A stretch of 42,657 bases of DNA from a bacterium. Its GTDB lineage: Bacteria; Latescibacterota; Latescibacteria; Latescibacterales; Latescibacteraceae. Below, piece by piece: positions 23,388 through 41,469 of this stretch. Within the stretch, counting starts at the first letter, position 1. The number at the start of each line of letters is the position of its first letter. The stretch spans positions 1-42,657 of the forward strand of contig JAJFUH010000007.1 in NCBI GenBank assembly GCA_021372535.1, written 5' to 3'. The translations under genes and the position numbers were made by a program. The notes under the pieces were generated by a model. That model was not told the DNA's origin and did not search any database. It saw only the letters and a list, made by a program, of their open reading frames with translations.

Positions 23388-24164
23388 ATGAAAAAAATCT
23401 GGGTGACAGCGCTCGATAAAGATGCACAATCAGTGCAGAAGATCCTCGGAACGATCCGTCAGTACGGGCTTGACGGCAACGGCCATTTCTGGCAGGACGA
23501 TATCAAAAATCTTGCCTGGCTCGGGCCGAAAGAGGCGCTTGCCGACAGGGAAACATCGCTCTGGGTCATTCTGTGTTCTCTGAAGAGCCTTGAATCGGAA
23601 TCGGTACGGTACGGGCTTTCACTTCTGGCCATTACCGTTCAGGCGGTGCGAGGGATCGGTTTCCCGATACTGTTTGCGGTAACCGATGGCGCTCTCGAAA
23701 TCGATAAACTGCCGACTCCCCTTCGCGGGGCTGACAGCATAGCATTCTCCAGCCCTTCACTCGGGGCGAAGATTGTGGCAAAAGCCAACACGCCGGTACC
23801 GAAAATCAGTACGGATTACCGTATCGACATCCATGCGAATCCGAATTACGGGATATGGTTCGAGGTCGGCCCGGCCGGAACTGCCGTATGGAAGGGAGCG
23901 CTCATCGGCGTTTCGGGAGGGGACATCAATTTCCACGGTGTCGGAGCGGCCGGTACCCTGCCCGAGAAATCGGTGCTTGAGTATCCCATGGAGGGTCTGA
24001 AACTTCAGCTTGGCGAAAAAGACTACAGCGCATGGGCTGTACAGAATACAATAGACGCCGGACATTCATACTATGTCCGTATCCATGACATGCCGTCCGG
24101 CATCGTTTTCGGACCGTATGCCCCGGATGATGAAGCGTCTGTCAGTGTAATCTCTCTCAGGTAA
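23388..24164 (+). CDS. Hypothetical protein in the T6SS operon, unrecognised
   Basis: I do not recognise this 258-residue protein. The N-terminal half (about 1-125) alternates strands and helices in a Rossmann-like way (MKKIWVTALDKDAQSV; SLWVILCSLKSL; GFPILFAVTDG) and could resemble a TIR or receiver-like fold; this is inference. The C-terminal half (about 145-258) is predicted beta-rich (NYGIWFEVGPAGTAVWKGAL; HSYYVRIHDMPSGIVFGPY). There is no signal peptide or membrane helix. It follows the DUF4150 gene, has its own ribosome-binding site (GGGGGA), and ends 5 bases before the RsbW-like gene, so it is probably co-transcribed with both. It could be an effector, a chaperone, or the target of the partner switch. 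Confidence 0.8.
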   Translation: MKKIWVTALDKDAQSVQKILGTIRQYGLDGNGHFWQDDIKNLAWLGPKEALADRETSLWVILCSLKSLESESVRYGLSLLAITVQAVRGIGFPILFAVTDGALEIDKLPTPLRGADSIAFSSPSLGAKIVAKANTPVPKISTDYRIDIHANPNYGIWFEVGPAGTAVWKGALIGVSGGDINFHGVGAAGTLPEKSVLEYPMEGLKLQLGEKDYSAWAVQNTIDAGHSYYVRIHDMPSGIVFGPYAPDDEASVSVISLR

Positions 24165-24169
24165 CCGGT

Positions 24170-24598
24170 ATGGAGTGCATGCGGACACATACGCTTGAAA
24201 TTGAAAACGACCTCTCGGAACTGCACCGGATACATGACTGTCTGGAGCGTCTGGGAGAAGAATGGAACATACCACCGAAGCCGGTTTTCGATATCGCTCT
24301 TACGGTTGAAGAACTGGTATCCAATGTTATTAATTACGGGTATGAGGATACCGGTAACCTCATTGTGCTCAGATTCAGCCTGGATGGTGATGTATTAAGC
24401 GTGCTGATCGAGGATGAGGGGAAGGCATTCAATCCCCTCGATATGCCTTCTCCCGATATACATGCACCGGTCGAGGAACGAAAAATAGGCGGGCTGGGGA
24501 TTCATCTGGCGAAAACGCTCATGGATTCTTTCTCGTATGAACGTAATGGCGACAGGAACCGTGTTACGGTCACAAGACGGATATCCCGAATCAAATAA
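24170..24598 (+). CDS. RsbW-like serine kinase / anti-sigma-type ATPase
   Basis: The product belongs to the HATPase_c_2 family (RsbW, SpoIIAB). Such kinases bind a target, often a sigma factor, and phosphorylate a STAS antagonist on serine. The 142-residue protein has all nucleotide-binding boxes: the N box EELVSNVINYGYED at 48-61 with Asn52, the G1 box EDEGKAFNP at 81-89, and the G2 box GGLGIHLAK at 107-115. It therefore looks catalytically intact. It starts 5 bases after the hypothetical gene and is followed 19 bases later by a STAS gene, the typical pair. No sigma factor gene is present in the window, so the target is unknown. Confidence 0.88.
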   Translation: MECMRTHTLEIENDLSELHRIHDCLERLGEEWNIPPKPVFDIALTVEELVSNVINYGYEDTGNLIVLRFSLDGDVLSVLIEDEGKAFNPLDMPSPDIHAPVEERKIGGLGIHLAKTLMDSFSYERNGDRNRVTVTRRISRIK

Positions 24599-24617
24599 AC
24601 GTGAAAGGAACATTCTG

Positions 24618-24950
24618 ATGGATATTAAGGAAGAAAGAAAAGGGCAGGTTGTCGTTCTTACAATTAACGGAAGACTCGATTCGACAAACGCTTCTCAACT
24701 CGATAAAAAAATTGAGGGATTGATCGACAGAAAAGAAAAGCAGATTCTTCTCGACTGTTCTCAGCTCGGCTACGTCAGCAGTTCGGGATTGCGGGTTTTC
24801 CTGACGGGGTTGAAAAAAATGAATGCGATTCACGGGAAATTTCTTATCTGTTCCCTTCAGGGGCCGATCAGTGAAGTATTTGACATTTCGGGATTCTCGG
24901 GAATTTTTTCAATCTATGACTCGCAGGCGAAAGCGCTGAGCGCATTCTGA
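24618..24950 (+). CDS. STAS-domain anti-anti-sigma factor (SpoIIAA/RsbV-like)
   Basis: The 110-residue product is a single STAS domain. Unphosphorylated STAS antagonists bind the RsbW-type kinase and free its target; phosphorylation on a conserved serine blocks this. The site is visible as YVSSSGLRVF, with Ser55/Ser56 in the phosphoacceptor position. The ATG at 24618 is chosen over an upstream extension to 24537 because AAAGGAA lies 7 bases upstream and the protein then begins right at the STAS fold. It is the last + strand gene, and its stop is 42 bases from the end of the convergent gene for the PP2C response regulator, which is its likely phosphatase. Confidence 0.92.
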   Translation: MDIKEERKGQVVVLTINGRLDSTNASQLDKKIEGLIDRKEKQILLDCSQLGYVSSSGLRVFLTGLKKMNAIHGKFLICSLQGPISEVFDISGFSGIFSIYDSQAKALSAF

Positions 24951-24992: not shown

Positions 24993-26192
24993 TTACTCAA
25001 AGCGCACCTTGAGTATGGAAAAATCGTCCGCCAGGGTTTCACCCGCGTTCATGTCTTTGATATAGAGCAGGAGCGCATCGATTTCAGAACCCTTCCCGGT
25101 CGGCGGATCGACGAGAAATGCCTTCAATTCATCGAGACTCCACAGCGTCCCATCCTGTTTCTGAACTTCGTATACACCATCTGAAAAAACATACAGTGTC
25201 GAAGGACGGTCGATTTTTACCGTTCTGCTCGTATAGGACGAACCCGGCAATCCGCCGATGAGAAGATTTTTGGTCATCAGCTCGGAGAACCTGTCCGGCC
25301 CGGAAATGAGCAGCCCGGGGGGATGTCCGGCTGTCGAGTATCGGAGCTCATTCGTCCTTATATTCACCACGCCGTACCAGATCGTGAAATAGAGGTTATT
25401 GTGCGACTCCATCTGAAACGAATCGTTGAGACCGGAAAGAACCTGCTCCGGTACAATAAAGTCGGTATTCGGAAGCGTTTGTGACCGCAGCGTATTGAGA
25501 GCAGACACCGAGAGCAACGCGGAACCCACTCCATGGTCGCATACATCGAGCAGGTAGACCGCAAAATGATCCTCGTCGATCCAGTGGTATCCGAAGGAAT
25601 CCCCTCCAAGCTGCGCCGACGGCACAAAACGCCACTCGGTCATGATGGGCGGTTCGGTTATCGGCGGGGGCAGAAGCGACATCACATGTTCCGCCGCTTT
25701 TACAAGCTCGGAAGCCAGTTCCTGCTGGCTTTTAAGCAGCGCTTCATAGGCCTCGTTCCGCTGCAGCAGGTTGATGTATGCTTTAGAATGGTAGCGTATT
25801 CTGGCGATCAGCTCAATCCTGTCCGGCAGTTTGACGAGGTAATCGTTCGCTCCCACCGCAAACGCATCGGCTTTGGTGCCCGCCTCTTCTTTCGAGGACA
25901 AAACGATGAGGGGTACATCCTTGAGCTGTGGATGAACCCTGAAGAATTTCACGAGGGTCAGTCCGTCGATATCCGGCATGACAAGGTCCTGAAGGATGAT
26001 CGTCGGCGACACTTCGACTGCCATCTCGATCGCTTTGGTGGGGTCCTGGCAGTAATGGAACGATATGTCCTTCTCGGACGAAAGCATGCGTTCGACAGCG
26101 GCGGCAACAATGGTCTGGTCATCGATCAGAAGGACGGTGATTTCGTAATCGGTCAGCCGTGATGATAACGAGGGGGAGGGGTTAACGGGCAT
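24993..26192 (-). CDS. Response regulator with PP2C/SpoIIE phosphatase output (RsbU/HsbR-like)
   Basis: This 399-residue protein has an N-terminal receiver domain (about 18-135) with acidic pair Asp24/Asp25, phosphoacceptor Asp69 (LQDLVMPD) and Lys121. A short coiled-coil linker (about 145-175) leads to a PP2C-type SpoIIE domain (about 180-398). Metal-binding residues are present: Asp198 in LGGDSF, Asp216 in LLDVCDHG, Asp338 in FSDGV and Asp389/Asp390. It should be an active Mn/Mg-dependent serine phosphatase switched by receiver phosphorylation. It is the last gene of the Wsp-like operon, 5 bases after cheB, with ribosome-binding site AAGGAA. Its position is that of wspR, but the output is a phosphatase and not a GGDEF domain. 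The likely substrate is the adjacent STAS protein. Confidence 0.92.
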   Translation of the reverse strand: MPVNPSPSLSSRLTDYEITVLLIDDQTIVAAAVERMLSSEKDISFHYCQDPTKAIEMAVEVSPTIILQDLVMPDIDGLTLVKFFRVHPQLKDVPLIVLSSKEEAGTKADAFAVGANDYLVKLPDRIELIARIRYHSKAYINLLQRNEAYEALLKSQQELASELVKAAEHVMSLLPPPITEPPIMTEWRFVPSAQLGGDSFGYHWIDEDHFAVYLLDVCDHGVGSALLSVSALNTLRSQTLPNTDFIVPEQVLSGLNDSFQMESHNNLYFTIWYGVVNIRTNELRYSTAGHPPGLLISGPDRFSELMTKNLLIGGLPGSSYTSRTVKIDRPSTLYVFSDGVYEVQKQDGTLWSLDELKAFLVDPPTGKGSEIDALLLYIKDMNAGETLADDFSILKVRFE

Positions 26193-26197
26193 ATCGG

Positions 26198-27214
26198 CTA
26201 TTCCTTTACTTTCATATAACGTACAATCGATTCCGTGATGGTGTCAATGGGCAGAATTTCCACAGCCGCTTTTATCTCCGCAGCGGCTTTCGGCATACCG
26301 TAAACTATAGAGGTTTTCATATCCTGTGCGATAGTGTGCCATCCTTTTTCGCGCAGCTCCAAAAGCCCCCGGGCGCCGTCTTTTCCTATTCCGGTCAGTA
26401 AAAGTGCGATACCTCTCTGCGGCCAGCAGGCGGCGAGACTGCTGAAAAACGTATCGACCGACGGTCGGTAGGGATAGTTCCGGGGCTCGGAAGTATAATG
26501 AAACGACATATCCTCTCCAACGATGAGGTGATCGTTGGTTTTCGCGATGTACACAGTATTTTCCGCCGGGCGGTCGCCCTCGCGCGCGACTGTTACGGTG
26601 AGTGCTGTCTGTTCATTCAGCCATTCGGCCAGCCCTGATGCGAATTGTACATCCACATGCTGGACGATAACGATCGATGCTCCCAATTGCCGGGGCATGG
26701 ACGAAAGAATGATCGACAGAGCTCTGGGTCCGCCGGTGGAACTGCCGATCGCCACGAGGGACGGTTGGGTTTTGGGGGTTTTTTTTGCCACGGGTGCCCG
26801 AGCGGGTATCGTATCGTTTTTACCGATGAGTTTACCAATGGTCGCAATTTTCCGCAGCAGTTCATCGGCGCCCTGTATCGAGCCGTCGCCGCCCATGACA
26901 GGCGTTCCCGCAGCATCGAGCGCCCCGTGACCCATAGCCTCGAACACTTTGGATGCGTTTCCGCTTACCGTCGCCGTCACCACGAGGATTGCGCAGGGTG
27001 TATTCTTCATTATCGTACTGGTAGCCTGAACACCGTCCATAACGGGCATGATCAAATCCATGAGAATCAGGTCGGGAGTATCTTCGGCGCATTTTTTCAC
27101 CGCTTCAGCCCCATCAATGGCAATCCATGATATTTCGTAAGACGGGACAGATGAAATGACTCTACGGAGTATTTCAACCGCCAGCATCAGATCGTTGACA
27201 ATGGCAATACGCAT
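26198..27214 (-). CDS. cheB: Chemotaxis-type methylesterase CheB (WspF-like)
   Basis: CheB removes methyl groups from, and deamidates, chemoreceptor glutamates or glutamines and gives adaptation. The 338-residue protein has a receiver domain (about 1-120) with phosphoacceptor Asp53 (LILMDLIMP), a linker, and the methylesterase domain (about 150-335). The catalytic triad is visible: Ser in GSSTGG at 157-162, His186 in VQHVD, and Asp279 in GIGKDGARG. The start MRIAIVND at 27214 is preferred; a frame extension to 27274 adds 20 residues unlike any receiver domain. AGGAGAG lies upstream. A 166-base spacer separates it from cheA. Confidence 0.93.
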
Positions 27215-27380
27215 TATCTTACCGCTCTCCTGACATGGATTATTCATGAAAATATTTTTACCACAAAGACACAAATAGATATAATGGATTGTTTATACTA
27301 TTATTAGCAGTTATTAATCGTTAACGTCCCAAATGATATAAATAAAAAACAAATCCGTGAAAATCCGCGTTTAGTCAAAT
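27215..27380. other. cheA-cheB spacer with repeat-like segments
   Basis: This A/T-rich gap breaks the otherwise tight Wsp-like operon. It contains ACCACAAAGACACAAAT and AAATCCGTGAAAATCCGCG. Both strings look, from memory, like fragments of widely dispersed intergenic repeats; this was not checked by search. No gene, clear promoter or terminator was found in it. Confidence 0.4.
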
Positions 27381-30089
27381 TCATTGAATAGATCGGGCTA
27401 AGAGGTCGTTGACCGCATCGAACAGACGGTCGTCATGAAAACTTGCCTTTGTCAGATAGTAGTCCGCGCCGGCATCGAGGCCCTTCATTCTGTCCTCTTC
27501 ACGATCCTTGTACGAGATAATGATGATCGGGATTCTGCTGAAATCCGGATTGTTTTTGATTCTGCCGATAAGCTCCAGTCCATTCATGCGGGGCATGTCA
27601 ATATCCGTTATCACAAGGTCGAACGCTTCGCGCTTGAGCAGCGTGTTCCATGCGTCCATTCCATCGACAGCGGCGGAAACCTCGTATCCCCTGCTCTGCA
27701 GCATCTTGCGCTCCGCTTCCCGCACGGTGATGGAATCGTCCACGACAAGAATCTTTTTCTTTACCGACTGGTTGACTTTCCCATTGCCGATTTTCTCCGG
27801 TTTGCCGTGAGTAACGAACTCATCGATAGACCGGACAAGGTCATCGGCATCCATGATCAGCACCGGTGAACCATCCTCGAGAATAGCGCCGGAACTGATC
27901 GTCGGTATCTTCCCGAGTCGTGCATCGAGGGGTCTGACAACCAGCTCGGCCTGACCGAGAAAACGGTCGACCACAAAGCCATATCGGTTTAACCGGTCGC
28001 TGATAATGGCAATAGGGAGCGAATCCGGCGTGTTGTCCCCTTGAGGAAGCCGCAGAATCTGCCGTGCATTGACGATTCCGATGTTTTCACCCTCGAAAAT
28101 GCATATCGGCCGGTCTTCGACCGTTTTCAGCTCCTTTGCGGAAAAATCGATGACATGTTCGATACGGGTAAGCGGGAGAGCATACGTTTCGCCGGCAATG
28201 TCCATCAGGAGAGCTCTGACGACCGAGAGCGTTATGGGAAGATGGAGATGAAACGTCGTCCCCCGTCCGGGTTCCGATTCGATCCGTATCGAGCCGCTGA
28301 CCGAGTGAAGCATCGATAAAACAACATCGAGCCCGATACCTCTTCCCGAAACTTCAGTCACCTTTTCGTGCGTGGTGAAGCCGGGAAGAAACAGAAATTC
28401 AAAGAGCTCGTCGCGGGTGAGGTTTTTAGCCATTTCATCGCTGACATGCCCGTCCCGAACCACTTTTTTCCGTAATTTCTCCGGATCGATCCCCATGCCG
28501 TCATCCTGTATGATGATATTGAGCATTCCGAACATGTGACGGGCTTCGATACGAAGCGTACCTTCCGGTTTTTTCCCGGCCGCGGCCCGTACATCAGGAG
28601 TCTCGATACCGTGATCGACAGCGTTTCGCAGAATATGGGTGAGCGGCGATTCGAGTTTTTCCAGAATATCCCTGTCCACAGGAGTAGACCCGCCCTGAAT
28701 GACAAGGTTGACTTTTTTACCGAGCCGTCTGGAAAGATCGCGAACCATTCTGGGGAAACCAAGAAGCCCGTCGGAAAAAGGAGTCATTCGGCTCGATATT
28801 ACCTCCGAATACAATTGATCAGTAAGATTTTCAATGCGTCGCGAGAAAATCTCGTACTCTTCCATATGCTGGTAGAGAATTTCACGGCTCTGCTCCAGAA
28901 GCCGGAACGTTTCATAGTTTTTTTCATAGACCTCTTCGAGCCCGGCGGTATTCTTGACTGTCACGAGAAGGGTTTCGAACGAGCTGGCAACCTCCATGTA
29001 CAGGTGTTTCAATGTGAGCAGTGATGCGGAAAACGGTTTCGCCAGTTTCGCCTGGATAAGGCACTCGCCGGTGAGTCCGAGAATCCGGTTAAGGGTGTCG
29101 GCAAGCACGCGGACAAAGGTTTCTTCCCTCGGGGCGGCTTCTTTTTTCGGCAAGGCAGAGACAAGCTGTCTCGCTTCCAGGAGTGAGGATTCGAACGGTT
29201 TCCCCGTCAGGACATCGATCAGCGAACGGGTCAGCGATTTTACCCTGTCGGATTGCGTGGACAGGGAACTGTGGATTTCCGAAGGGGTGAGCGAGGACAT
29301 CCGGGAAAATATATCGTTGCTCCGAAGCAGCAGGTCAATATGCTCCGAATGCAGGATCAGGTTCCCGTGCTGGGCAGCGGACAGTACATCTTCCATAGCG
29401 TGGGCGAGCGAAACCTCGAGGTTAAGGTTCACAATCCGTGCCGCGCCTTTTATCGAATGAGCCGCCCGCATGAGAGGTTCGATTTTTTCAGGGGTCTGGT
29501 TCTTTTCGAGCTCGACAAGGCCGCTTTCGAGAATCCGCGAGTGGGTCTCCACCTCGACACGGAAGAGCTGGAGCATGGATTCATCGGAGAATTCCCTGCT
29601 CTGCTTCGGTGCGGCTTCAGGTTCGACGGCCGGTTGTTCCGGTTTTGGTTCGGTCTGCTTTTGAGCCTGCGGTTCCGGGGAAAGCATTGTCCGGAGCTTC
29701 ACCGAAAGATTTTGTATTGTCTGCTCTTCACCCGAAAGCTGCGCCGACATCCCCGCGACCGGAGAGGAACTCAGGCGAAGGAAAATATCATTGCATTTCA
29801 GGAGCACATCGATGTGGTCTGAAGTAAGGTGTAGAGTCCCGTGCTGCGCTGCCGACAGCATGTCTTCCATGGCATGGGCGAGAGAAACGGCGAGGTCAAG
29901 CCCGACTATCCGGGCTGCTCCCTTGATAGAGTGTGCCGCCCGCATGAGCGGCTCGGTTTTCTCGGGCGACTGATCCCTTTCGAGATCGACCAGGCCGACT
30001 TCCAGCCTTTTAGCGCCGGTTTCCAGCTCAGTCCTGAACAGATCCAGCAGAGACAGGTCTGCCGGTTCACCCTGATTCGCGTTGATCAA
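27381..30089 (-). CDS. cheA: Hybrid histidine kinase CheA with two HPt domains and a receiver (WspE-like)
   Basis: CheA is the kinase of the chemosensory array. This 902-residue protein carries two N-terminal HPt domains with near-identical AAHSIKGAARIV motifs; the phospho-histidines are His53 and His211. Then come a dimerisation region, a HATPase domain (HILRNAVDHGIE; DDGMGID; GRGIGLDVV), a CheW-like domain, and a C-terminal receiver at about 778-902 with the site LVITDIDMP. A receiver fused to CheA is typical of WspE and other alternative-function systems. The start is a TTG at 30089 that overlaps the cheR-cheW stop as TTGA and has AGGAGAG upstream; no ATG is available near the N terminus. 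It would phosphorylate CheB and the PP2C regulator. Confidence 0.94.
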   Translation of the reverse strand: MINANQGEPADLSLLDLFRTELETGAKRLEVGLVDLERDQSPEKTEPLMRAAHSIKGAARIVGLDLAVSLAHAMEDMLSAAQHGTLHLTSDHIDVLLKCNDIFLRLSSSPVAGMSAQLSGEEQTIQNLSVKLRTMLSPEPQAQKQTEPKPEQPAVEPEAAPKQSREFSDESMLQLFRVEVETHSRILESGLVELEKNQTPEKIEPLMRAAHSIKGAARIVNLNLEVSLAHAMEDVLSAAQHGNLILHSEHIDLLLRSNDIFSRMSSLTPSEIHSSLSTQSDRVKSLTRSLIDVLTGKPFESSLLEARQLVSALPKKEAAPREETFVRVLADTLNRILGLTGECLIQAKLAKPFSASLLTLKHLYMEVASSFETLLVTVKNTAGLEEVYEKNYETFRLLEQSREILYQHMEEYEIFSRRIENLTDQLYSEVISSRMTPFSDGLLGFPRMVRDLSRRLGKKVNLVIQGGSTPVDRDILEKLESPLTHILRNAVDHGIETPDVRAAAGKKPEGTLRIEARHMFGMLNIIIQDDGMGIDPEKLRKKVVRDGHVSDEMAKNLTRDELFEFLFLPGFTTHEKVTEVSGRGIGLDVVLSMLHSVSGSIRIESEPGRGTTFHLHLPITLSVVRALLMDIAGETYALPLTRIEHVIDFSAKELKTVEDRPICIFEGENIGIVNARQILRLPQGDNTPDSLPIAIISDRLNRYGFVVDRFLGQAELVVRPLDARLGKIPTISSGAILEDGSPVLIMDADDLVRSIDEFVTHGKPEKIGNGKVNQSVKKKILVVDDSITVREAERKMLQSRGYEVSAAVDGMDAWNTLLKREAFDLVITDIDMPRMNGLELIGRIKNNPDFSRIPIIIISYKDREEDRMKGLDAGADYYLTKASFHDDRLFDAVNDLLARSIQ

Positions 30090-31702
30090 CGGATTATACT
30101 CTCCTGTAACGAATCGAAGAATCTGTCCTCATCGAGCAGCCCCACAGTCCTTTCATCGATGGTGAAAAGCCCCCCGGTAAGGCCGTGGGATGATTTCGAT
30201 ATGGTAGCAGGTGTTTTCGTGAGATCATCGGGAGTTATTCGTCTGACTCCCAGTACTTCATTGACGGAGAAGACAAACCGCTCGCCATTTTTTTCCACTA
30301 CAGCCATCCGTTTCATAACATTCTCTGTGGAATGCGCGCCATCTCCGGCCGGTATACCGAGGATAGTTTCAATCGAAACACAGGGTATCAGCTCGCCATT
30401 GATATTAACCAGCCCTCTGAATATCGAATTCGTGCGAAAGGGAACTGAATGAACGGGTCGGGTGTTATTCACTTCCTCGAAATAGGCGATTCTCAGGGCA
30501 AGCCATTCATCGCTGATCCTGAATACGACGACGGAATCGGTTCCCGGTATCTCGGTTCTCTTTTTCCGGGAGAGAATCTCGGTTCGTTCTTTCAGGTACT
30601 CCGGGGGTATTTCACGGTCGAAAAGGCTCTTCCCGTACCGTGCATATATCGGGCAGGCGCGGCAGTGTGACAATTCATCCAGTTTCGTGCATGTCTTGTT
30701 GCCATAAACGCCTGTCTCTTCCCAGCACAGTTCACTCGCATTTTTACTGATAGTGGCGGGAACGGTGTCGTTCGGACTTGAGTTCGTATATGGAGCGGAA
30801 TGCGCTATTATCTTTTTGGCAGGAATTTTTTTGTCGGATGTGCTTTGAACCTTGGTTGTTCCGGTCGTTGTTTTCAGATGTTTTTTCTCGGCAGCCGGTT
30901 TCTTGGCAGGTATTGTTTTTTGAAGGGCGAACGATCTCGAATGATGCACTGACTCATAGCCGGTATCCTTATAGAGAAACAGCTCGGCGCTCCCGACGAA
31001 GAGCAGACCGCCCGGAAGAAGGAGACGGTTTATGGTCGCAAGCACTGTTTCCCGCGCTTTATCCGTGAGATAAATCATGAAATTCCTGCAGAATATTATC
31101 TCGTACGGCCTGTTGCCTGCAAGATAATCCGGGTGAACAAGATTGTCACGGTGGAAGCGCACAAGCCCCGTAATCGAGTCATCGAGTTTATACTTCTGAT
31201 CGATCCTGCCGAAGTAACGGTCGCGAAAATCCTCTGTTTTACCGCGGAATGACTCTCTGCCGTAGAGACCGCCCGCCGCTTTTTCCAGTCCCTCTTTGCT
31301 GATGTCGACCGCATCGATGGTGAATGCATCCCCGGACAGGCCTGCATCGATGAGGGTCATGGCTATCGAATATGGTTCCTCTCCGGTGGAACAGGCGGCC
31401 GAAAGTATCCGCAGTACCTTTCCCTGCCGTGCGGGCAGCCAGTTCTCACGGACATGGTTGCTGAGGTAACGGAAGGGTTCCGCGTCGCGGAAGAACCATG
31501 TCTCATGGACAACCGCCTGCTCGATCAGACGGTCGAGTTCTTCCGGTGATGTGTCGAGGATTTCCCTGTACCGGAGAGCGGAAGTGATACCGAGACGCTT
31601 CATCTCGTCGGAAACCACACGATCCATGAATTTTTCGCCGAGCGATTCTATATTCAGCCCGATAGTGTCCTGAAGCAGTTTCTCGATTACCATGAACTCC
31701 AT
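30086..31702 (-). CDS. CheR methyltransferase fused to CheW (WspC-WspD fusion)
   Basis: The 538-residue protein joins two functions that are separate genes (wspC, wspD) in Pseudomonas. Residues 1-262 are a CheR methyltransferase with HETWFFRD at 66-73 and the SAM site SAACSTGEEPYS at 101-112. A Lys/Thr-rich linker spans about 263-320. Residues about 323-538 are a CheW domain preceded by the four-cysteine segment CWEETGVYGNKTC..HCRACPIY (Cys326, Cys338, Cys347, Cys350), which also occurs in WspD-type CheW proteins. One protein would thus both methylate receptors and sit in the array as a coupling protein. The stop overlaps the cheA start, indicating translational coupling. Confidence 0.9.
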   Translation of the reverse strand: MEFMVIEKLLQDTIGLNIESLGEKFMDRVVSDEMKRLGITSALRYREILDTSPEELDRLIEQAVVHETWFFRDAEPFRYLSNHVRENWLPARQGKVLRILSAACSTGEEPYSIAMTLIDAGLSGDAFTIDAVDISKEGLEKAAGGLYGRESFRGKTEDFRDRYFGRIDQKYKLDDSITGLVRFHRDNLVHPDYLAGNRPYEIIFCRNFMIYLTDKARETVLATINRLLLPGGLLFVGSAELFLYKDTGYESVHHSRSFALQKTIPAKKPAAEKKHLKTTTGTTKVQSTSDKKIPAKKIIAHSAPYTNSSPNDTVPATISKNASELCWEETGVYGNKTCTKLDELSHCRACPIYARYGKSLFDREIPPEYLKERTEILSRKKRTEIPGTDSVVVFRISDEWLALRIAYFEEVNNTRPVHSVPFRTNSIFRGLVNINGELIPCVSIETILGIPAGDGAHSTENVMKRMAVVEKNGERFVFSVNEVLGVRRITPDDLTKTPATISKSSHGLTGGLFTIDERTVGLLDEDRFFDSLQESIIR

Positions 31703-31797: not shown

Positions 31798-32250
31798 CTA
31801 TTTATTTACAAACAGTATCTGCTGAAGGGATTCCGGTAACAGTTTCATCGGATCGATCAGTTGAATCATACCGTCGGTATCGGTGGTAATCGTGCCGAGA
31901 TATGGTGTATTGTCCGATTCGACGCCGGGAGAATGAAAATCAGCTTCGGAAAACATCATCGTATCGGTGACTTTTTCAGCAAGAAGGCCGAGAATATGAA
32001 GCTCCTTATCTGAACCCGTGCAATAGACCAGTATGATCCGGGTGCTGAGGAGAGGCTTTGACCGGGAGCCGGCAAGGAGCACAGTCAGATCGATCACCGG
32101 CACTATCGAGCCGCGATACTTGAACAGTCCTGCAATATAGTCCGGCGAGCGGGGGATTTTTTTGAAACGGACCATCGATACGACTTCGATAATCTGACGA
32201 ACATCGATGCCGTATCGTTCTTTTTCGCATGTGAACATGAGTAGAAGCAT
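31798..32250 (-). CDS. cheW: CheW coupling protein (WspB-like)
   Basis: CheW links receptors to CheA. The 150-residue product is a single CheW domain: CEKERYGIDVRQIIEVV at about 8-24, the conserved FKYRGSIVPVIDL at about 43-55, and LGLLAEKVTDTM. It starts with an ATG 23 bases after the upstream receptor gene; Met5 is an alternative, and no strong ribosome-binding site is visible. A 95-base gap follows before the CheR-CheW gene. Together with the CheW half of that fusion, the operon encodes two coupling domains, as in Wsp (WspB and WspD). Confidence 0.9.
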   Translation of the reverse strand: MLLLMFTCEKERYGIDVRQIIEVVSMVRFKKIPRSPDYIAGLFKYRGSIVPVIDLTVLLAGSRSKPLLSTRIILVYCTGSDKELHILGLLAEKVTDTMMFSEADFHSPGVESDNTPYLGTITTDTDGMIQLIDPMKLLPESLQQILFVNK

Positions 32251-32273: not shown

Positions 32274-34406
32274 TCAGTCGTTTTGCGAGAAACGTGACAC
32301 CTCCTGTAAATTCTCCACAGCTTCGGTCAACTGATCGGTTACTTCTTTAAATTCGATGAGCGAATCACGAACCTGGATGGCTGTAATATTAAGCTGCTGC
32401 ATCGCATCGCTGATCTGTCCGGCGCTGTTGGATTGCGATTGCATGCCCTGGTTAAGCGACTCGAATTGTGGTACGAATTCACGCGAATGCTCGATAATGG
32501 TTCCCAGTTCCTCGCTTATCCGCGCGGTCTTCTCGGAACTTTCCTTCGCAAGTGTATGGTAGTTTTCGACACTGGCGACGCCGTCTTTCATGGCATTTTC
32601 CATCTCCAGTATCATTGCCTCGATATTAAGGGCCGCCACTGCGGTCTGGTCTGCGAGGCGACGGATTTCGGATGCCACCACCAGGAATCCTGCTCCGTAT
32701 TCGCCTGCATTTACGGCTTCTATGGAAGCATTGAGGGAGAGCAGGTTCGTCTGGTCGGCAACATTGGTTATCGTGGTAATAACCCCGGTGATAGTCGCGG
32801 CTTTTTCACTGATCATTTTCAGTTTGTCGTTCAAATCGGATGATGCAACGAGGAGCGTCCGCATGGTCGTTCGGATGTTATCCAGCCCCTGAATACCGGA
32901 ATTTGCAAGTGTGGCTGACTCCACAGACATTTTGGTGACCTGGTTCATGGTCGAGGCGAGGTCTTTGACATTGGAGCAGATGTGGGTGCTGGTCGAACGG
33001 ACATGGGTGGTCGATGCGGCCTGTTCGGCGGCGATTGTTTCGAGCTGCCGCATGGAAGTGACAATCCTGGACTTTGATTCGGAGACCTTGTCGCTTGCGG
33101 TGCGCAGACGAGTGATGATTGCATCCAGATTGGAGATCATGGTGGTAATTGCCTGAAACAGCACCGTTACCTCGTTCCGGTTCTTTCCGGTCGAACTGCC
33201 GGCGCTCTTACCGCTTCCGATTCCCATGCGATAAGCGCTTTCGAGGCTTGTTTTTGCTTCCTTGAGATTTCCGGACGCTATCGATTCAGCTGCATGCGTG
33301 ATAACGCCGAGCGGACGTGTAATACCCCGTGAAACAAGAAATGCAATTCCCCACGACACACTCAGCGCAATGATGATGAGGAGATAGGCAAGCAGCCTGC
33401 TCCGCTCGTTTGTGGCAATTTTCTTTTCGAGCAGAATATCGAGCTCGTGAATTGCAACCTGATTGAATGCCGAGCTCGTGTCGAGCATCTTTTCGCCGAG
33501 ACTCGTGAACTCGACAACAGTATCCGGGGGATGTTCTTCGCTTACAAGGTTTTTCAACAGCGAGGTGAATCCGCTGACTGCGGAATCATAGTTTTCAAAA
33601 ACAGGAGGAAGATTATTCTGCAGAGACTGGCTCTTGCCATAAAAATATTCGTCTTCCTGCAGGGCGAAGGAGAGATTTTGCCGGAGGAACCGCATATAGT
33701 AGTTTTCCGTAATATCAATGAATTCGGCGAATGTTATTCTGTCCTCCTGGGTCAGTCTGCCGGATTCGAGAGCTTTCATGCCATACAGCAGCATTTCACT
33801 GCACCGTTCCTGCATCTGGGGGATACCCACAAAAACATTGTAGATAAGGTGGTAGGTATCCATGTCGGGGTCACGAACAAGATTTGATGTATTTGCAACG
33901 TGGCTTGTCAGGGTTGTGATGCCTTTGCTGAGCTCAGTGTGTGCGGTGTCAATCTGCTCGGGTGACATGGCTTTCCAGTTTGCCTGAAGCGATTGCCATC
34001 TGGCGAAGAGTTCTCCGGGGTAATACTGCCCCATATCGATCTTTGACAGGCTTTGTCTGTCTATCTGGAGGGCTTTCTCATACTTCGTGGTTTTTACAAG
34101 AAGGTCGGAGAACGCGGTATCGATTTCCTGTGCTGCGAGCTCACAATTGTTCTGCTGAGCCATATCGCCGGATACGGAAAAATGGATATATCGGCGGTGT
34201 TCGGGCACCATCTCCGTGAGTTTCGCGAGCGGTTTTGATACCTCGCTGCCCATCAGTTCCCGCCGGGCGAAACGAATGGTGTTGTTGAAACCCGAAGTGA
34301 CGAAATAAAAGAGAATTGAGAGCGGCAGAATATAGGTAAGGCTGCTGATTAACAGCTTGTGGGAAATCGGCAGATTGTTCAGATAGTTTTTCATATACTC
34401 ATACAC
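32274..34406 (-). CDS. Methyl-accepting chemoreceptor, WspA-type signalling domain, helical periplasmic sensor
   Basis: This receptor has 710 residues. One membrane helix lies at about 16-38, then a periplasmic helical domain with no Cache fold visible (about 40-335), a second membrane helix at about 338-360, a HAMP domain, and a long cytoplasmic signalling hairpin. The tip DQTNLLSLNASIEAVNAGEY near residue 550 and the following RRLADQTAVAALNIEAMI segment are WspA-like. The first in-frame start is a GTG at 34406; the ATG at 34394 (MKNYLNNLP) is equally plausible, and neither has a clear ribosome-binding site. It lies 38 bases after the other receptor gene. The ligand is unknown. Confidence 0.9.
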   Translation of the reverse strand: MYEYMKNYLNNLPISHKLLISSLTYILPLSILFYFVTSGFNNTIRFARRELMGSEVSKPLAKLTEMVPEHRRYIHFSVSGDMAQQNNCELAAQEIDTAFSDLLVKTTKYEKALQIDRQSLSKIDMGQYYPGELFARWQSLQANWKAMSPEQIDTAHTELSKGITTLTSHVANTSNLVRDPDMDTYHLIYNVFVGIPQMQERCSEMLLYGMKALESGRLTQEDRITFAEFIDITENYYMRFLRQNLSFALQEDEYFYGKSQSLQNNLPPVFENYDSAVSGFTSLLKNLVSEEHPPDTVVEFTSLGEKMLDTSSAFNQVAIHELDILLEKKIATNERSRLLAYLLIIIALSVSWGIAFLVSRGITRPLGVITHAAESIASGNLKEAKTSLESAYRMGIGSGKSAGSSTGKNRNEVTVLFQAITTMISNLDAIITRLRTASDKVSESKSRIVTSMRQLETIAAEQAASTTHVRSTSTHICSNVKDLASTMNQVTKMSVESATLANSGIQGLDNIRTTMRTLLVASSDLNDKLKMISEKAATITGVITTITNVADQTNLLSLNASIEAVNAGEYGAGFLVVASEIRRLADQTAVAALNIEAMILEMENAMKDGVASVENYHTLAKESSEKTARISEELGTIIEHSREFVPQFESLNQGMQSQSNSAGQISDAMQQLNITAIQVRDSLIEFKEVTDQLTEAVENLQEVSRFSQND

Positions 34407-34444: not shown

Positions 34445-36664
34445 TTATTCCATGATCCTGAATCGGGAGACTTCGTTCTGGAGTCCCTGAACAGCCTCAT
34501 TCAACTGGTCTGTCGCCAGTTTGAATTCATGGAGCGATTCCTTTGTCTGTTCGGCGGTTTCCGAAAGTTGAACGATGGCTTCGCTGATCTGATGAGCGCC
34601 GTCTTCCTGCCCGTGCATTCCTTCTTTTGCAGCTTCGAAATCCGGAACCAGAGCCCTCACCTGTTCGATGATACCGCCGAATTGCTCGCCGATGGATTCC
34701 AGCTCGTGCACGCCTTCACGGACTTCATCGGTGAACTTGTCCATTTCCATCACCCCCGAAGATACAGAGGACTGCATCTCCTTCACCATGTATTCGATAT
34801 CCCCTGTGGCAATGGATGTCTGGTCTGCAAGGCGGCTGATCTCCTGGGCGACAACTGAAAATCCTTTACCGTATTCTCCCGCTTTTTCTGCTTCGATGGC
34901 AGCGTTGAGAGAAAGGAGATGGGTCTGGTCGGAGATTTTGCTGATGGTTATTCCTATGCTCGAAATTTTCTTCGTTTTTTCATTGATTATCGCCAGCTTT
35001 GAGGAAATTTTGCTGGTTGCATCGACAAGACGGTTCATGACCGTCTCCATGTTATTCAGATTGGATCGTCCGCTGTCGGCTCTGGTCGCCGTATTGTCGA
35101 CCGTTTCGCTTACTTTGTCCATGGTATTAGCCAGTTCGACAGCGGTCGAGGCAATTTCTTTGCTTGTGACCGAGACTTCTTTGGATGATGCCGCCTGTTC
35201 GGAAACTGTGGCCTGAAGTTGTTTGATCGATGCCGAAATCTCGGTGGCGGATGTCGTTACCTGAATACCCGAGCGATGTACCTGGCCGATCAGGGAATTG
35301 AGGCTTTCCGCCATAGTACCGAAGGCTTCGAGCAGCTGTACGGTTTCATCGTGGTTCTGTATAAAATGTTCTTTTTGTTTTTTCCGGCCCGATTTCATTG
35401 AAACGTCCGTCAATTCTTTTCTGGCGCCCGATACATCACCGGCGGCGATCTTTTTCGCCACCCTGGTAATGAGATCGAGCGGTTTGACCATACGATTGCC
35501 CATATAGTTGGCAAAGATAGTTGCAATTACTATGATTATGAATCCGCCGATAATCAAATGGAACAACAGTCTCGATGTAGCCTTGTCTATCTCATATTTT
35601 GCCTGTTGGTAGTCTTCCTCATAAATACCCGCGCCGATTACCCAGTCCCATGGTTTGAAATATACAATTGCAGCGATTTTATTCCGAACTGTATCCTCGC
35701 CGACGTTTTTCCATGGATATTTTTCGTACGCAACCTCGCCTTTTCCTAATGGAAGCGCTTTTTTGATGATGGATTGAACAAAGTAGTTTCCCTCTGAATC
35801 GACAGCATCCCAGATATTTTCCTTGTCACGTTCGCCATCTTTTGAGATTATGTACGAACCCCTGTTTCCCCCGGTTCCCTGGAGAACCCAGACATATCCG
35901 GTTTTGCCGACAACGATATTCATGATGGCTGTCCGGAGCGATGTAACGGATTCCAGTTTTTCCCCGACATACAGCATGCCGATGATTGTATCGTTTTTGT
36001 CCTGTATCGGCTCGTACGATGCGATATACCATGCGTTTACCACATAGGCAAGACCTCGATACGTTTCCCCTTTCAGCACTTTCTCGATGACCGGGTTGAC
36101 GGCACCGTTCGGATTGACTGCGGGGATATACGTGCCGGTGGCTCTGGTGTTATCGAGATTCTCGACATTCGTGGCGATTCTCAGCATATCGCCGCGATCA
36201 TTCATCCGCTGAAATATCGTGCATGTTCCCCCAACGAGTTTTTTTACCTCATCCACAACCGGTGTCGCTGTCGAAAAATCACGGCTCTTTCCGAACCATG
36301 TCCGTCCGATATTCATCCTGGGCAGCTTGAGTCGCTGCAATGCATTATTATACTGGTTGATCACTTCCCATTCGACAGTTTCCGATCCGATGTTTATGAA
36401 CCCGTTTTGTTTGATGATCTCCCGCGCAACATTGAGGTCGTTATCGATTTTTATCTGAACAAGATCGTTTGTAACCTCACACAGACCACTGACATCTTTG
36501 GCAATCTGGGCAATATTCAACCTGCTGATTTTATCGAGCTCGTCTTCCGCCTTTTTCTTCGTTATTCCCTGGAATTTCACAATCAGGATATACATAATCA
36601 TCACAGGAATAATCACGGAGAGTATTACCAGACCGATGATCTTTTTTCGCATGGTAAGGTTCAT
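34445..36664 (-). CDS. Methyl-accepting chemoreceptor, Cache sensor and WspA-type signalling domain
   Basis: This 739-residue receptor has membrane helices at about 8-28 and 368-390. They flank a large periplasmic Cache-type domain (about 35-365; [31 protein letters not shown] and GYVWVLQG are typical strands). HAMP and a signalling hairpin follow. The tip [20 protein letters not shown] and the segment [19 protein letters not shown] are close to the WspA signature as I know it. The ATG at 36664 has AAAGGA 7 bases upstream. Being next to a second receptor with a different sensor, it suggests the array integrates at least two inputs. Confidence 0.92.
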
Positions 36665-37681: not shown

Positions 37682-38017
37682 TCAGTGATCGCAGATATTA
37701 TCCCCGCCTTCCAGCTGACCCGTCGCACACATCGAAGCGAGAACTTCGGGCGGTTTCAATGGCGCTCCGACAACCACGGAGATATTATTCTCCGCAAAAA
37801 GACTCTGAGCTCTCGAACCCATGCCGCCCGCAATGATATGTGTAACCCCGAGAGAGTGCAGCCACGCGGGAAGCACTCCGGGTTCATGAGGAGGTGGAAT
37901 GAGGTTTTCACGGCTGATGACGGTTCCGTTGTCATCGACTATCATAACTGCAAACCGGTCGCAGTGACCGAAATGCATCGCCAGACTGTTTTCCGTAAGC
38001 GGAACGGCAATTTTCAT
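37682..38017 (-). CDS. NifX/NifB-like dinitrogenase iron-molybdenum cofactor domain protein
   Basis: The 111-residue product is a single NifB/NifX/NafY-type domain (MKIAVPLTENSLAMHFGHCD start, IIAGGMGSRAQSLF middle). In nitrogen fixers such domains bind iron-molybdenum cofactor precursors. Stand-alone versions next to MinD/Mrp ATPases are common in anaerobes that do not fix nitrogen, and their role in metal-cluster handling is inferred. A ribosome-binding site GGGAG precedes the ATG. No nif structural gene is present in the window. It is the last gene of the block, 54 bases after mrp. Confidence 0.88.
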   Translation of the reverse strand: MKIAVPLTENSLAMHFGHCDRFAVMIVDDNGTVISRENLIPPPHEPGVLPAWLHSLGVTHIIAGGMGSRAQSLFAENNISVVVGAPLKPPEVLASMCATGQLEGGDNICDH

Positions 38018-38071
38018 CGAATAACTCCCTTCCTGACTGTTTTCAACGTATGAGGTTTTGTACGGTTTTTC

Positions 38072-38884
38072 CTAAGACATGAATGCCTGTATGACGGTTT
38101 GAAACGCCTTGGATGCCTTGGATTCGGTGTTTTTGAGAATGAACGGGGTACCGTCATCGCACGATGAGACAATGACAGGATCGATCGGGATTCTTCCGAG
38201 GAATGGCACGTTCATTTCCCGTGCGAGCGCTTCGCCGCCCCCGGTGTTGAATATATCGACACTGTTGCCGCAGTGAGGACACACGAATCCGCTCATGTTC
38301 TCGATAATTCCCTTCACGGGGAGATTGACCTTACGGCAGAAGGTTATGCTCTTGCGCACATCCTCGATTGAAACCTGCTGGGGAGTCGTGACTATGACCG
38401 CTGTTGCCTTTGGAGCGGTGAGCTGTGCGATGCTGAGCGGCTCATCTCCGGTGCCCGGCGGCGAGTCGATGACGAGGTAATCGAGCGTTCCCCACTCCAC
38501 ATCGGCAATAAACTGCTGTATCACGCTGTATTTCAACGGACCGCGCCATATGACCGCATCACCGCGGTCCTGAAGCAGGAATCCTATAGACATGACCTTT
38601 AGATTCACCGTAAACTCAACAGGGAGCATGGAATTTTCGCTGTATAAAATGGGCGATCCCGAAAGACCCATCATGGACGGTATACTGGGCCCATGAATAT
38701 CGACATCAAGGAGACCGACTTGTTTCCCCGCGCGGGCAAGTTCTGTTGCGATATTGACGGCAACGGTGCTTTTTCCAACTCCCCCTTTTCCAGAGAGAAT
38801 GAGAAGAATGTGGTGTATGGATGCAAGCCTTTTGCTGATTTTTTTGTCGGTCTCTTCCTGTGAAGAGTTTGCGGGACTGTTCAT
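38072..38884 (-). CDS. mrp: Mrp/NBP35-family iron-sulfur carrier ATPase
   Basis: Mrp (ApbC) proteins bind and transfer [4Fe-4S] clusters with help of a P-loop ATPase. The 270-residue protein has the deviant Walker A motif SGKGGVGKST at 31-40, LDVDIHGPSIP, a Walker B-like LVIDSPPGTGDEP, and a CPHC motif near 201-204 that would bridge a cluster between two subunits. The start at 38884 (MNSPANSS) has GGAGA 8-9 bases upstream; the longer frame from 38989 adds 35 residues without family support. It lacks the N-terminal DUF59 domain, as in the NBP35 type. Confidence 0.9.
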   Translation of the reverse strand: MNSPANSSQEETDKKISKRLASIHHILLILSGKGGVGKSTVAVNIATELARAGKQVGLLDVDIHGPSIPSMMGLSGSPILYSENSMLPVEFTVNLKVMSIGFLLQDRGDAVIWRGPLKYSVIQQFIADVEWGTLDYLVIDSPPGTGDEPLSIAQLTAPKATAVIVTTPQQVSIEDVRKSITFCRKVNLPVKGIIENMSGFVCPHCGNSVDIFNTGGGEALAREMNVPFLGRIPIDPVIVSSCDDGTPFILKNTESKASKAFQTVIQAFMS

Positions 38885-39010
38885 GCTGTTTTCTCCATAA
38901 GTGGAAATGCTGCGATGGGATAATTGACAAATACATATTTCATTAACGGGCGTGTGAAAATGATATTTTCTCACCGCCTTTTTGTTCATTCATTTGATCT
39001 GGCACCGGTG

Positions 39011-39931
39011 TTATGAAGCATTATCCTGTTTTTCAGGCAGGGACGAGAGTTTTTCATGTACCTTTTGCCACAAGGCACGCACATCCTGTGTGACAGGGGA
39101 ATCGGTGAATTCGACCACACACGATCCCTGAACCATGGAATCTGTTACCGCACGGTCATATCTGATGGTTCCGAGCACATCGATCCCCCTGCTCTGTACC
39201 TTTTCAGAAATGACGCGGGTCATATCCCCGTTCAGGTCCCACTTGTTGATGGTTACCGCCAGGGGAATACCGAAATGTCCGGCAAGCTCGATAACCCGCT
39301 CAAGATCATGAAGACCCGATTTTGTCGGCTCGGTTACCGCCAGAACCATGTCTGCTCCTGTGATTGAGGCTATGACAGGGCATCCTATGCCGGGTGAGCC
39401 GTCCACGATGATCGTATCGAGACGATCCCGCGCGGCGATATTCCGCGCTTCGTTACGGATGATGGTGACCAGTTTCCCGGAATTTTCTCCTCCGGCATGG
39501 AGCTTTGCGTGTACCAGCGTTCCATGACGGGTATCCGAAATGAACCACTGTCCGTTGACTGTCGGAGTGAACTCAATAGCCCCTTCAGCGCAGAAATGGG
39601 CGCAAACTCCGCATCCCTCGCAGGCAAGTGGATCGACCCGGAATGTTTTTGGGAATGTGCCGTTTCCGGGCCCGTCTAAGAAAATAGCGTCGAATCGGCA
39701 CAGTTCTTCGCATTTACCACATGCCGTACAGTGCCCCGGTTTGATCCGGGCGGTTTTCCCGCCGACAAAGTCATTTCGATGGAGTACTTTCGGATTGAGC
39801 ACTATATATAAATCGGCGGCGTCCACATCACAATCAGCAAGCACTTCCCGTTTCGCCAGTGCGGCAAACGAGGCGACCACCGAGGTCTTGCCAGTCCCAC
39901 CCTTGCCGCTAATGACCACAAGTTCTTTCAC
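39011..39931 (-). CDS. MinD-type P-loop ATPase with inserted 2x[4Fe-4S] ferredoxin domain (first copy)
   Basis: The 306-residue protein begins MKELVVISGKGGTGKT, a deviant Walker A motif (8-16), and carries an inserted ferredoxin domain with two full cysteine sets: Cys68, 71, 74, 78 and Cys104, 107, 110, 114. It ends with the MinD/ParA fold, including TIIVDGSPGIGCPV. Such ATPases come in pairs beside NifX-like and Mrp genes in anaerobes; their precise role is not established. The start is GTG with AAGGAA just upstream. It shares domain layout with the gene at 41470-42321 but is clearly divergent, so the pair is an old duplication. Confidence 0.88.
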   Translation of the reverse strand: MKELVVISGKGGTGKTSVVASFAALAKREVLADCDVDAADLYIVLNPKVLHRNDFVGGKTARIKPGHCTACGKCEELCRFDAIFLDGPGNGTFPKTFRVDPLACEGCGVCAHFCAEGAIEFTPTVNGQWFISDTRHGTLVHAKLHAGGENSGKLVTIIRNEARNIAARDRLDTIIVDGSPGIGCPVIASITGADMVLAVTEPTKSGLHDLERVIELAGHFGIPLAVTINKWDLNGDMTRVISEKVQSRGIDVLGTIRYDRAVTDSMVQGSCVVEFTDSPVTQDVRALWQKVHEKLSSLPEKQDNAS

Positions 39932-40046
39932 GTTTCCTTATCCTCAACTTAAATAGGGATTTTCGTTTCTCAGCCAAGACAAGTTCGGTATAACGCCGTT
40001 CGATTGTCAGAAGCTTGAGCGTTCTGCTGAATTTTTACATGTAATG

Positions 40047-40535
40047 TTATTGATAACCGCGTTTCCCGAGCAGCCTGGCGGTTTCCTCGTCCACTTTGTC
40101 TTGCCAGCCGTTGCGAGTCGTTTCTATTCTATCAAACTTGGCCGTGTATGGCTTGATATCAAGGAGTGGCGTGCCGTCCAGGATGTCTACGCTATCAAGA
40201 TGAAGCACGTTACCTTCGCGGCGTATTAATTCGACAATGCTCAGCCCTATGGTATTGGGGCGGCAAGGCGCTCGCGTCGCGAACACGCCTCGCTCAACAT
40301 CCTGGAGAAACGGCTTCACCAGAAGCCTGGTGGGTCCTGCTTGGTGGAAGTGGCAGATGAGATAGATATGTGAAAAACCATCCAGATCGCGGAGACCGTC
40401 GACAAACTCTGGGAATAACACTGCCATGCCCTTACAGCCCTTCGCGTATGCTGGCTGGATGGGTGTCCGTTCCGTGGCGACATGCTCGCTGTGGATAACA
40501 CCGATGGGTTTGTAGGTAATAATGGTTTCGCTCAT
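40047..40535 (-). CDS. trmO: tRNA methyltransferase TrmO (TsaA/YaeB family)
   Basis: TrmO uses S-adenosylmethionine to methylate N6-threonylcarbamoyladenosine at tRNA position 37. The 162-residue protein shows the family blocks IGVIHSEH at about 11-18, RTPIQPAYAKGCKG, LRDLDGFSHIYLICHFH, and RGVFATRAPCRPNTIGLSIV. It lacks the C-terminal extension of the E. coli enzyme and resembles the short form frequent in anaerobes and archaea. The ATG at 40535 is preferred over a TTG at 40541; GGAGAGGGG lies upstream. Its presence among iron-sulfur ATPases is a recurrent but unexplained neighbourhood. Confidence 0.88.
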   Translation of the reverse strand: MSETIITYKPIGVIHSEHVATERTPIQPAYAKGCKGMAVLFPEFVDGLRDLDGFSHIYLICHFHQAGPTRLLVKPFLQDVERGVFATRAPCRPNTIGLSIVELIRREGNVLHLDSVDILDGTPLLDIKPYTAKFDRIETTRNGWQDKVDEETARLLGKRGYQ

Positions 40536-40593
40536 GCCCAATGCCCCTCTCCATCCGCCGAGATTGAAAACGTAATTTTTTTTGGCATTTTTC

Positions 40594-41037
40594 TCAATTG
40601 TACAACTCCATTACATTGCGAGGCTCCACAATGAGGTGGTCTGCGAGCACTTTCATATCCGCTTCATCCCAGAAGGAAAGTTTGCTGTGGGTTTCCATGT
40701 ATTTTAATGGAATGGGATGAGTCCCGATAACCACCGGCAGACCATAGCGCGTTTCGATAAATGCCTTGAATTGACAGATGTAGGGACAGGGGGGATAGCC
40801 CACCACCAGACCGGTAGCAAGGTGGACGACGTCGCACCCGTTCTTCACAAACTCCGCGGGAACATATTCTACGTTTCCCCCCGGGCAGCCGCCGCAGCTC
40901 GAATAACCGATAATCTCCACTGGCTCGTCTGCGGCGTACCGGGAAAAGCCGCCATGACGCTCGCGCAGCGCCCGGAAACATTTGCCGCCGCCGCAGTCCC
41001 GATAACGGGCGCAGATGATGATTCCTATTCTTATCAT
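40594..41037 (-). CDS. CGGC-domain protein
   Basis: The 147-residue product matches the CGGC domain family, small cysteine-rich proteins of unknown function that probably bind metal. Visible cysteines are Cys9, Cys15 and Cys20 in CARYRDCGGGKC, Cys48 and Cys51 in SSCGGCPGGN, and Cys83 and Cys87 in PPCPYICQF. His110 and other polar residues lie in VVIGTHPIP. It is 16 bases after the PPOX-fold gene and probably co-transcribed with it. The family match is good; the function is unknown. Confidence 0.87.
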   Translation of the reverse strand: MIRIGIIICARYRDCGGGKCFRALRERHGGFSRYAADEPVEIIGYSSCGGCPGGNVEYVPAEFVKNGCDVVHLATGLVVGYPPCPYICQFKAFIETRYGLPVVIGTHPIPLKYMETHSKLSFWDEADMKVLADHLIVEPRNVMELYN

Positions 41038-41053
41038 TTCAGACCCTTCTCAA

Positions 41054-41431
41054 TTACACAATTTTTTCCGCTCCGCTGTACACTTCATCAATCAAGAGCA
41101 CCGCCGCGGCATGCACGGGATACTTGGGATCGAGACAGTCCTTCAGGAACTCACGGATTTCTCCGCTCTCCTGATATTCGATCATTCCTTTCATCTGGTA
41201 GGCCTTTTTCTCTTTCGTGATGAACAGGAGGGACCCCCGGCTTCCAGCGCGGATGTTCTCGCGGGTCTTGTTAAAATAGTTATCGGCGATAGCTATCCGA
41301 TCATCGCCGTGAAGGAATACGCAGGTGACATAAATGGAATTGGGGTTCCCGTTCCGGTCCACGGTGGTGAATATGGCCGGTCCCTCACGGTTTTCCCAGG
41401 CTTTTGTTATCATTTCCGGCAATGAGGTCAT
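41054..41431 (-). CDS. Pyridoxamine 5'-phosphate oxidase-fold flavin-binding protein
   Basis: The 125-residue protein has the split-barrel PPOX fold pattern: ENREGPAIFTTVDRNGNPN, a strand with IYVTCVFLHGDDRIAIAD, the FNKTRENIRAG turn, and SLLFITKEKKAYQMKG. Small proteins of this type bind FMN or heme-like cofactors; the substrate is unknown. The start at 41431 is preferred because AAGGAA lies 7 bases upstream; the frame extends to 41473 and would overlap the MinD gene, but that N terminus has no family support. The location between iron-sulfur and CGGC genes suggests a redox role, as inference. Confidence 0.8.
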   Translation of the reverse strand: MTSLPEMITKAWENREGPAIFTTVDRNGNPNSIYVTCVFLHGDDRIAIADNYFNKTRENIRAGSRGSLLFITKEKKAYQMKGMIEYQESGEIREFLKDCLDPKYPVHAAAVLLIDEVYSGAEKIV

Positions 41432-41469
41432 GTTGAGATTCCTTTTTATACAGCTTACGTTGATTGCCG

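Follow-up and report, generated by a model that had tools for sequence, protein, structure and literature searches.

The fusion gene and its operon

A single open reading frame of 538 codons (positions 31702-30086 of the window, minus strand) encodes a CheR methyltransferase of the WspC type followed by a complete CheW protein of the WspD type; the window is the whole analyzed stretch of DNA, 42,657 nucleotides long. The observation is confirmed: the fusion looks real, is so far unique and is known from one genome. It is probably a genuine fusion in a Wsp-type operon, the CheW half of which would anchor an active methyltransferase in the receptor array. The plus strand of 30086..31702 is interrupted by stops. 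The features of the gene and of its neighborhood are as follows:

24170..24598, plus strand: HATPase_c_2 protein, presumably anti-sigma-kinase-like; convergent with the operon
24537..24950, plus strand: STAS protein, antagonist-like, possible PP2C substrate; convergent with the operon
24993..26192, minus strand: response regulator of the REC-SpoIIE (PP2C) type, occupying the WspR position (Pfam)
26198..27274, minus strand: CheB methylesterase, WspF position (Pfam)
27381..30089, minus strand: CheA-REC (two Hpt domains), WspE position; the fusion stop codon overlaps its TTG start
30086..31702, minus strand: CheR-CheW (WspC-WspD) fusion gene, 538 aa (open reading frame, translation, Pfam)
30917..31702, minus strand: WspC-type CheR methyltransferase half, residues 1-262 (Pfam CheR, identity to the L223 WspC, alignment to solved CheR structures)
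30758..30916, minus strand: linker rich in Lys/Thr/Pro, residues 263-315, standing where WspC has its linker and TPR domain
30089..30757, minus strand: complete WspD-type CheW half, residues 316-538 (identity to the L223 WspD, modelled CheW fold)
30653..30727, minus strand: four-cysteine segment of WspD, Cys326/338/347/350 (residue positions, WspD alignments)
31798..32250, minus strand: CheW, WspB position (Pfam)
32274..34406, minus strand: WspA-position chemoreceptor, HAMP and MCP signal domains (Pfam)
34445..36664, minus strand: second chemoreceptor with Cache_3-Cache_2 sensor (Pfam)

Within the fusion protein, Pfam recognized CheR in residues 67-250 (E 1e-42) and CheW in residues 391-531 (E 3.7e-18). 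Both halves match separate homologues far beyond chance: residues 6-262 are 39.7% identical to the WspC of locus L223, the closest relative (E 9e-59; aligned over the CheR domain only), and residues 316-537 are 46.7% identical to its WspD (E 2e-66), this alignment beginning just ahead of the WspD start codon. The preliminary description had proposed that CheR (1-262) and a WspD-type CheW (about 323-538) are joined in one protein by a Lys/Thr-rich linker, and each part of this proposal is borne out: the open reading frame is real, its two domains are homologous to the two separate proteins over spans close to those proposed, and 10 Lys and 9 Thr are present among the 53 linker residues. Identities between the CheR half and the CheR domains of WspC proteins are 35-42%, these values being taken from the CheR rows only of a mixed alignment (A7). 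Alignments which mixed CheR rows, WspD rows and the fusion were poor (A7 aligned WspD rows with CheR, and the mean column identity of A5 was 21%), and both were left out of structure modelling. For the CheW half, the predicted model displayed a confident CheW fold, and Foldseek searches with the model returned CheW-type domains only (E up to 0.001).

On the minus strand, the gene order is Cache receptor, receptor, CheW, fusion, CheA-REC, CheB and REC-SpoIIE, i.e., the Wsp core order receptor-CheW-CheR-CheW-CheA/REC-CheB with C and D as one gene. The annotated wsp-type operons of Azoarcus and Mesorhizobium comprise genes for a receptor, CheW, CheR, CheW, a hybrid CheA, CheB and a diguanylate cyclase or PleD-type regulator, and their CheR and second CheW genes overlap by one to four bases. 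In comparison with these operons, the window departs from Wsp in three respects only: the fusion, the additional receptor and the output, which is REC-SpoIIE and not WspR (REC-GGDEF) or WspH. The earlier placing of a WspC-WspD-type fusion in a Wsp setting thus agrees with the gene order, although the operon ends in REC-SpoIIE and not in WspR. The Wsp systems of Pseudomonas and Burkholderia share with the window the order receptor, CheW, CheR, four-cysteine CheW, CheA-REC and CheB; the window differs from them by the wspC-wspD fusion, the missing TPR domain, the two receptors and REC-SpoIIE in place of WspR/WspH.

A PP2C phosphatase usually has HATPase_c_2 and STAS proteins as its partners. The pair encoded here is adjoined by a 258-aa open reading frame (23388-24164, plus strand) with no Pfam match. 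On the other side of the sensory operon (37682-42267, minus strand) lies a metal or Fe-S handling neighborhood, which encodes NUBPL/Mrp-type and ferredoxin-containing P-loop ATPases, a Nitro_FeMo-Co protein and a CGGC protein.

Of 20 regions retrieved from the phyla to which loci L120 and L062 belong, 10 also contain Wsp-ordered operons with a REC-SpoIIE output (i.e., L206, L207, L210, L211, L212, L214, L215, L217, L218, and L222); they have the same order and output type as the window, whereas WspC and WspD are separate in all ten. The available part of a published survey counts 794 Wsp systems, each with WspR or WspH, and confines Wsp to beta- and gammaproteobacteria (PMC8552884). By the 10 of 20 regions, Wsp-ordered operons ending in REC-SpoIIE are common outside Pseudomonadota.

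Distribution of the fusion

A survey of domain architectures, proposed in the preliminary description, was carried out on two sets of loci, and the fusion was found in neither. For the first set, a genome collection (84,980 species) was scanned with patterns derived from the fusion and two WspD proteins. This resulted in 286 stretches, 203 of which encode relatives, and the best 80 of the 203 were retained. None of these 80 loci, all from named genomes, carried CheR and WspD in one frame, and all 80 carried the four-cysteine motif; as the loci had been fetched partly by this motif, the count of cysteines is circular, while the count of fusions is not. An earlier scan of the collection, with the fusion protein itself as a query, found no relative.

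Profile searches in three other phyla, with at most seven candidates scored per genome, gave strong WspD matches in 29 of 387, 9 of 396 and 27 of 386 genomes. Fused genes were absent from all 72 loci examined, mostly from these phyla (four loci examined before are repeated among the 72, one gene occurs twice and two are not WspD). Two class-level searches each returned only the already known genome (1 of 38 and 1 of 142). Among the 64 genomes of the window's own phylum, no other four-cysteine WspD was found; a CheW-like match was present in 15 of them (the window's genome included), the best match outside the window reached 63 bits and starts after the cysteine segment, and a genome of the same genus yielded weak CheW matches only. 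Literature searches in the openly licensed papers of PubMed Central yielded no natural CheR-then-CheW fusion. The annotated operons and all relatives found keep two genes, in line with the earlier statement that wspC and wspD are separate in known Wsp operons.

Long frames of L163 and L175, considered as possible fusions, were rejected, because CheR sits there in another, overlapping frame. Other arrangements were observed as well. L219 (4243-10175) contains a receptor-CheW-WspD-CheA cluster with a four-cysteine WspD and no CheR detected nearby. In L086 (5496-12543; Roseofilum, a cyanobacterium) CheR and a four-cysteine WspD are separated by a receptor gene, and the flanks retrieved for the other cyanobacterial loci showed no CheR.

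Loss of the TPR domain and origin of the fusion

TPR matches were obtained in all eight WspC proteins of relatives that were scanned, and none in the fusion protein (E up to 0.5), the CheR of which is of the WspC type. The fusion shares the CheR domain and the following linker with the CheR-TPR proteins (WspC and FrzF), and differs from them by the presence of a CheW domain where the TPR domain would be. According to the available text of one study, CheR-TPR proteins cluster mostly with pathways of alternative cellular functions, whose regulators include phosphatases (PMC3447774).

In a tree of the CheA, WspD and CheR regions of 51 loci, the window was placed beside L223 (support 0.77), and the grouping of the window, L223 and L225 obtained a support of 0.97, with long branches in all three. 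In L223, WspC (CheR, linker, and TPR) and WspD are encoded by separate genes with a GTGA overlap. In the ancestor, wspC and wspD would have been neighbors or have overlapped, which is still the case in relatives; the C-terminal TPR domain of WspC and the wspC stop codon would then have been lost, and the CheR linker joined in frame to the whole WspD. This loss, after which the former WspC linker would run straight on into an intact WspD, appears to be the simplest history, which we infer, unlike the loss of the TPR domain, which is observed. The view of the gene as a fusion of two genes therefore stands, but a merely lost stop codon does not account for it, since the WspC TPR domain of the relatives is also gone.

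The cysteine segment of WspD

The WspD part of the fusion begins with C-x11-C-x8-C-x2-C, followed by CheW, and the four cysteines (Cys326/338/347/350) correspond exactly to the pattern in the preliminary description. No variation of the segment was seen among aligned rows (8 of 8 and 11 of 11). In a larger set of 145 distinct WspD rows, up to 80 of which came from the cysteine-biased scan, all four cysteines were present in 134, exactly three in none, and two or fewer in 11. In these last rows (L150, L157, L158, L160, L161, L162, L166, L167, and L174-L176) the segment is lost as a whole, and such one or two cysteines as they have sit in stretches unlike it. The cysteines are thus kept or lost as a set, which suggests a putative metal site, the pattern being that expected of a four-ligand site; a metal-free structural role is also conceivable. 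Judging by the alignments, the segment is a general WspD trait, i.e., the normal WspD N-terminus. The earlier claim that the CheW half retains it was therefore correct, but the segment is not peculiar to the fusion, and for the same reason the idea of a new domain gained together with the fusion was rejected.

Scans of the segment of six proteins against NCBIfam and Pfam gave nothing above the curated cut-offs, and weak profile matches (e.g., to a pertussis-toxin subunit, E 0.018, 15.4 bits versus a cut-off of 27) were taken as chance. A search for similar cysteine segments within the genome returned five matches with E up to 1, one being the fusion and the other four having E of 0.3-0.7. In the predicted model, the pLDDT of the cysteine stretch was about 60, so no geometry is readable. 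Seven conserved WspD motifs of unknown function have been described, and the main text of that paper, in its available part, does not use the word "cysteine" (PMC8552884).

Predicted role of the fusion protein

Tethering of the methyltransferase to the receptor array, suggested already in the preliminary description, is the natural reading and likely. Within the receptor-CheA array, the WspD/CheW half would serve as one of the scaffold units, while its linker would allow the CheR half to reach methylation sites on nearby receptors. Methylation would thereby be tied to the array, and neither a TPR domain nor a C-terminal docking peptide on the receptors would be needed any longer. CheA would phosphorylate CheB (feedback) and the REC-PP2C phosphatase, which probably acts on the STAS protein, giving a partner-switching output. 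Unlike the reading frame, the domains, the gene order and the residues, it is the tethering, the constitutive or faster methylation and the output that we infer.

The C-termini of the two receptors of the operon are ...RFSQND and ...RFRIME, neither of which we take to be a CheR-docking pentapeptide. Being fused to a scaffold could give the enzyme the tether that these receptors do not offer. By a rough estimate, the 53-residue linker has a contour length of 19 nm and an rms length of about 6 nm, and the single candidate methylation site of the WspA-position receptor (an imperfect motif, matched by a relaxed pattern only) is separated from the receptor tip by about 16 nm of helix; reaching it is possible, with the linker having to stretch well beyond its average length. 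For WspA itself, the accessible part of the literature reports that it lacks the Tsr docking motif and that its methylation has never been experimentally confirmed (PMC8552884).

Arg72 and Tyr211 of the fusion align with Salmonella CheR, and both are retained; the available part of a study on Treponema denticola describes the corresponding residues of its CheR as essential (PMC7666581). These residues bear on a further reading, rather unlikely in our opinion, in which the CheR half has ceased to be an enzyme and serves chiefly to shape the array, as in the spirochaete CheW-CheRlike protein of the F2 system. That protein is likewise of the scaffold type, combines a CheW with a CheR domain and, as far as the source was available, is a known component of an unusual array (PMC7666581). 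Its domain order is, however, the opposite one (CheW N-terminal, CheR-like C-terminal), it carries R79W and Y218F at the positions corresponding to the intact Arg72 and Tyr211, and no other CheR is encoded in the window's operon, the only other one of the genome being located on a different contig.

The nearest functional precedent is the WspC::D chimera, which arose in an evolution experiment with Pseudomonas fluorescens Pf0-1 (isolate 30.1) and unites the same two proteins in the same order; when rebuilt, it gave the Dry phenotype in both parent and ancestor, according to the part of the report available (PMC9600634, Table 1). This suggests that such a fusion is active. The chimera differs in its experimental origin and its c-di-GMP output, and the likeness concerns the protein pair and its order. 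The same result fits an alternative in which the TPR-less fusion locks methylation high, so that the pathway would be permanently switched on or have a shifted set-point, and adaptation would not be improved. The TPR domain of FrzF limits methylation, and FrzF without it methylates more sites, as stated in the available text (PMC3447774). Such constitutive activation is nonetheless improbable, as the adjoining CheB is retained, which points to two-way control, and the chimera comes from a different lineage with a different output.

Returning to the tethered, active enzyme, a more specific proposal may be made tentatively, at somewhat less than an even chance: the methyltransferase would be a permanent array member, with one CheR per WspD position, replacing TPR control and docking peptides, and the fusion would be a wild counterpart of WspC::D driving a phosphatase and a partner switch, not c-di-GMP.

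Authenticity of the junction

The fusion frame contains no ATG, GTG or TTG from codon 252 (inside CheR) to codon 344 (past Cys338), and the other two frames are shut by stops near codons 276 and 319. The third-position G+C of the linker is 0.45, versus 0.51-0.68 in the flanking domains, and its second-position G+C is higher, so these codon statistics are not in themselves proof of a coding linker. A6/A7 runs are located at codons 261, 273 and 291, in and near the linker, and no repeats were found in 30600-31000 of the window. As no in-frame start precedes the first two WspD cysteines and the TPR domain is missing, one sequencing error is no explanation, and a single-error artefact was rejected as the main reading.

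More generally, it is quite unlikely that wspC (with TPR) and wspD are in reality separate genes which an indel or a collapsed deletion has joined in the assembly: every relative found retains two genes, the adenine runs are the likeliest sites of indel errors and the assembly is in 236 contigs, but at least two independent errors would be needed, the whole TPR domain would have to vanish with neither frame disturbed, the junction lacks repeats that would invite collapse, and the Lys/Thr/Pro-rich linker resembles a natural inter-domain linker. Relatives with two genes, named beforehand as a sign of assembly error, do exist, but they do not indicate such an error here, since they also have the TPR domain and the WspD start that are absent from the window.

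Significance

The Wsp-type pathway was already known, and the new part is the natural, so far unique fusion of wspC and wspD. The finding bears on how CheR finds receptors that lack a docking peptide, on the role of the WspC TPR domain and on the need for two CheW proteins; WspB and WspD are reported in the available part of the literature as not redundant (PMC8552884). The survey extends Wsp-ordered operons with phosphatase outputs beyond beta- and gammaproteobacteria, and the cysteine segment, as a family trait, is of interest in any WspD. A natural weld of WspC and WspD that has no TPR domain suggests that TPR control may be dispensable and that WspC normally works beside WspD.
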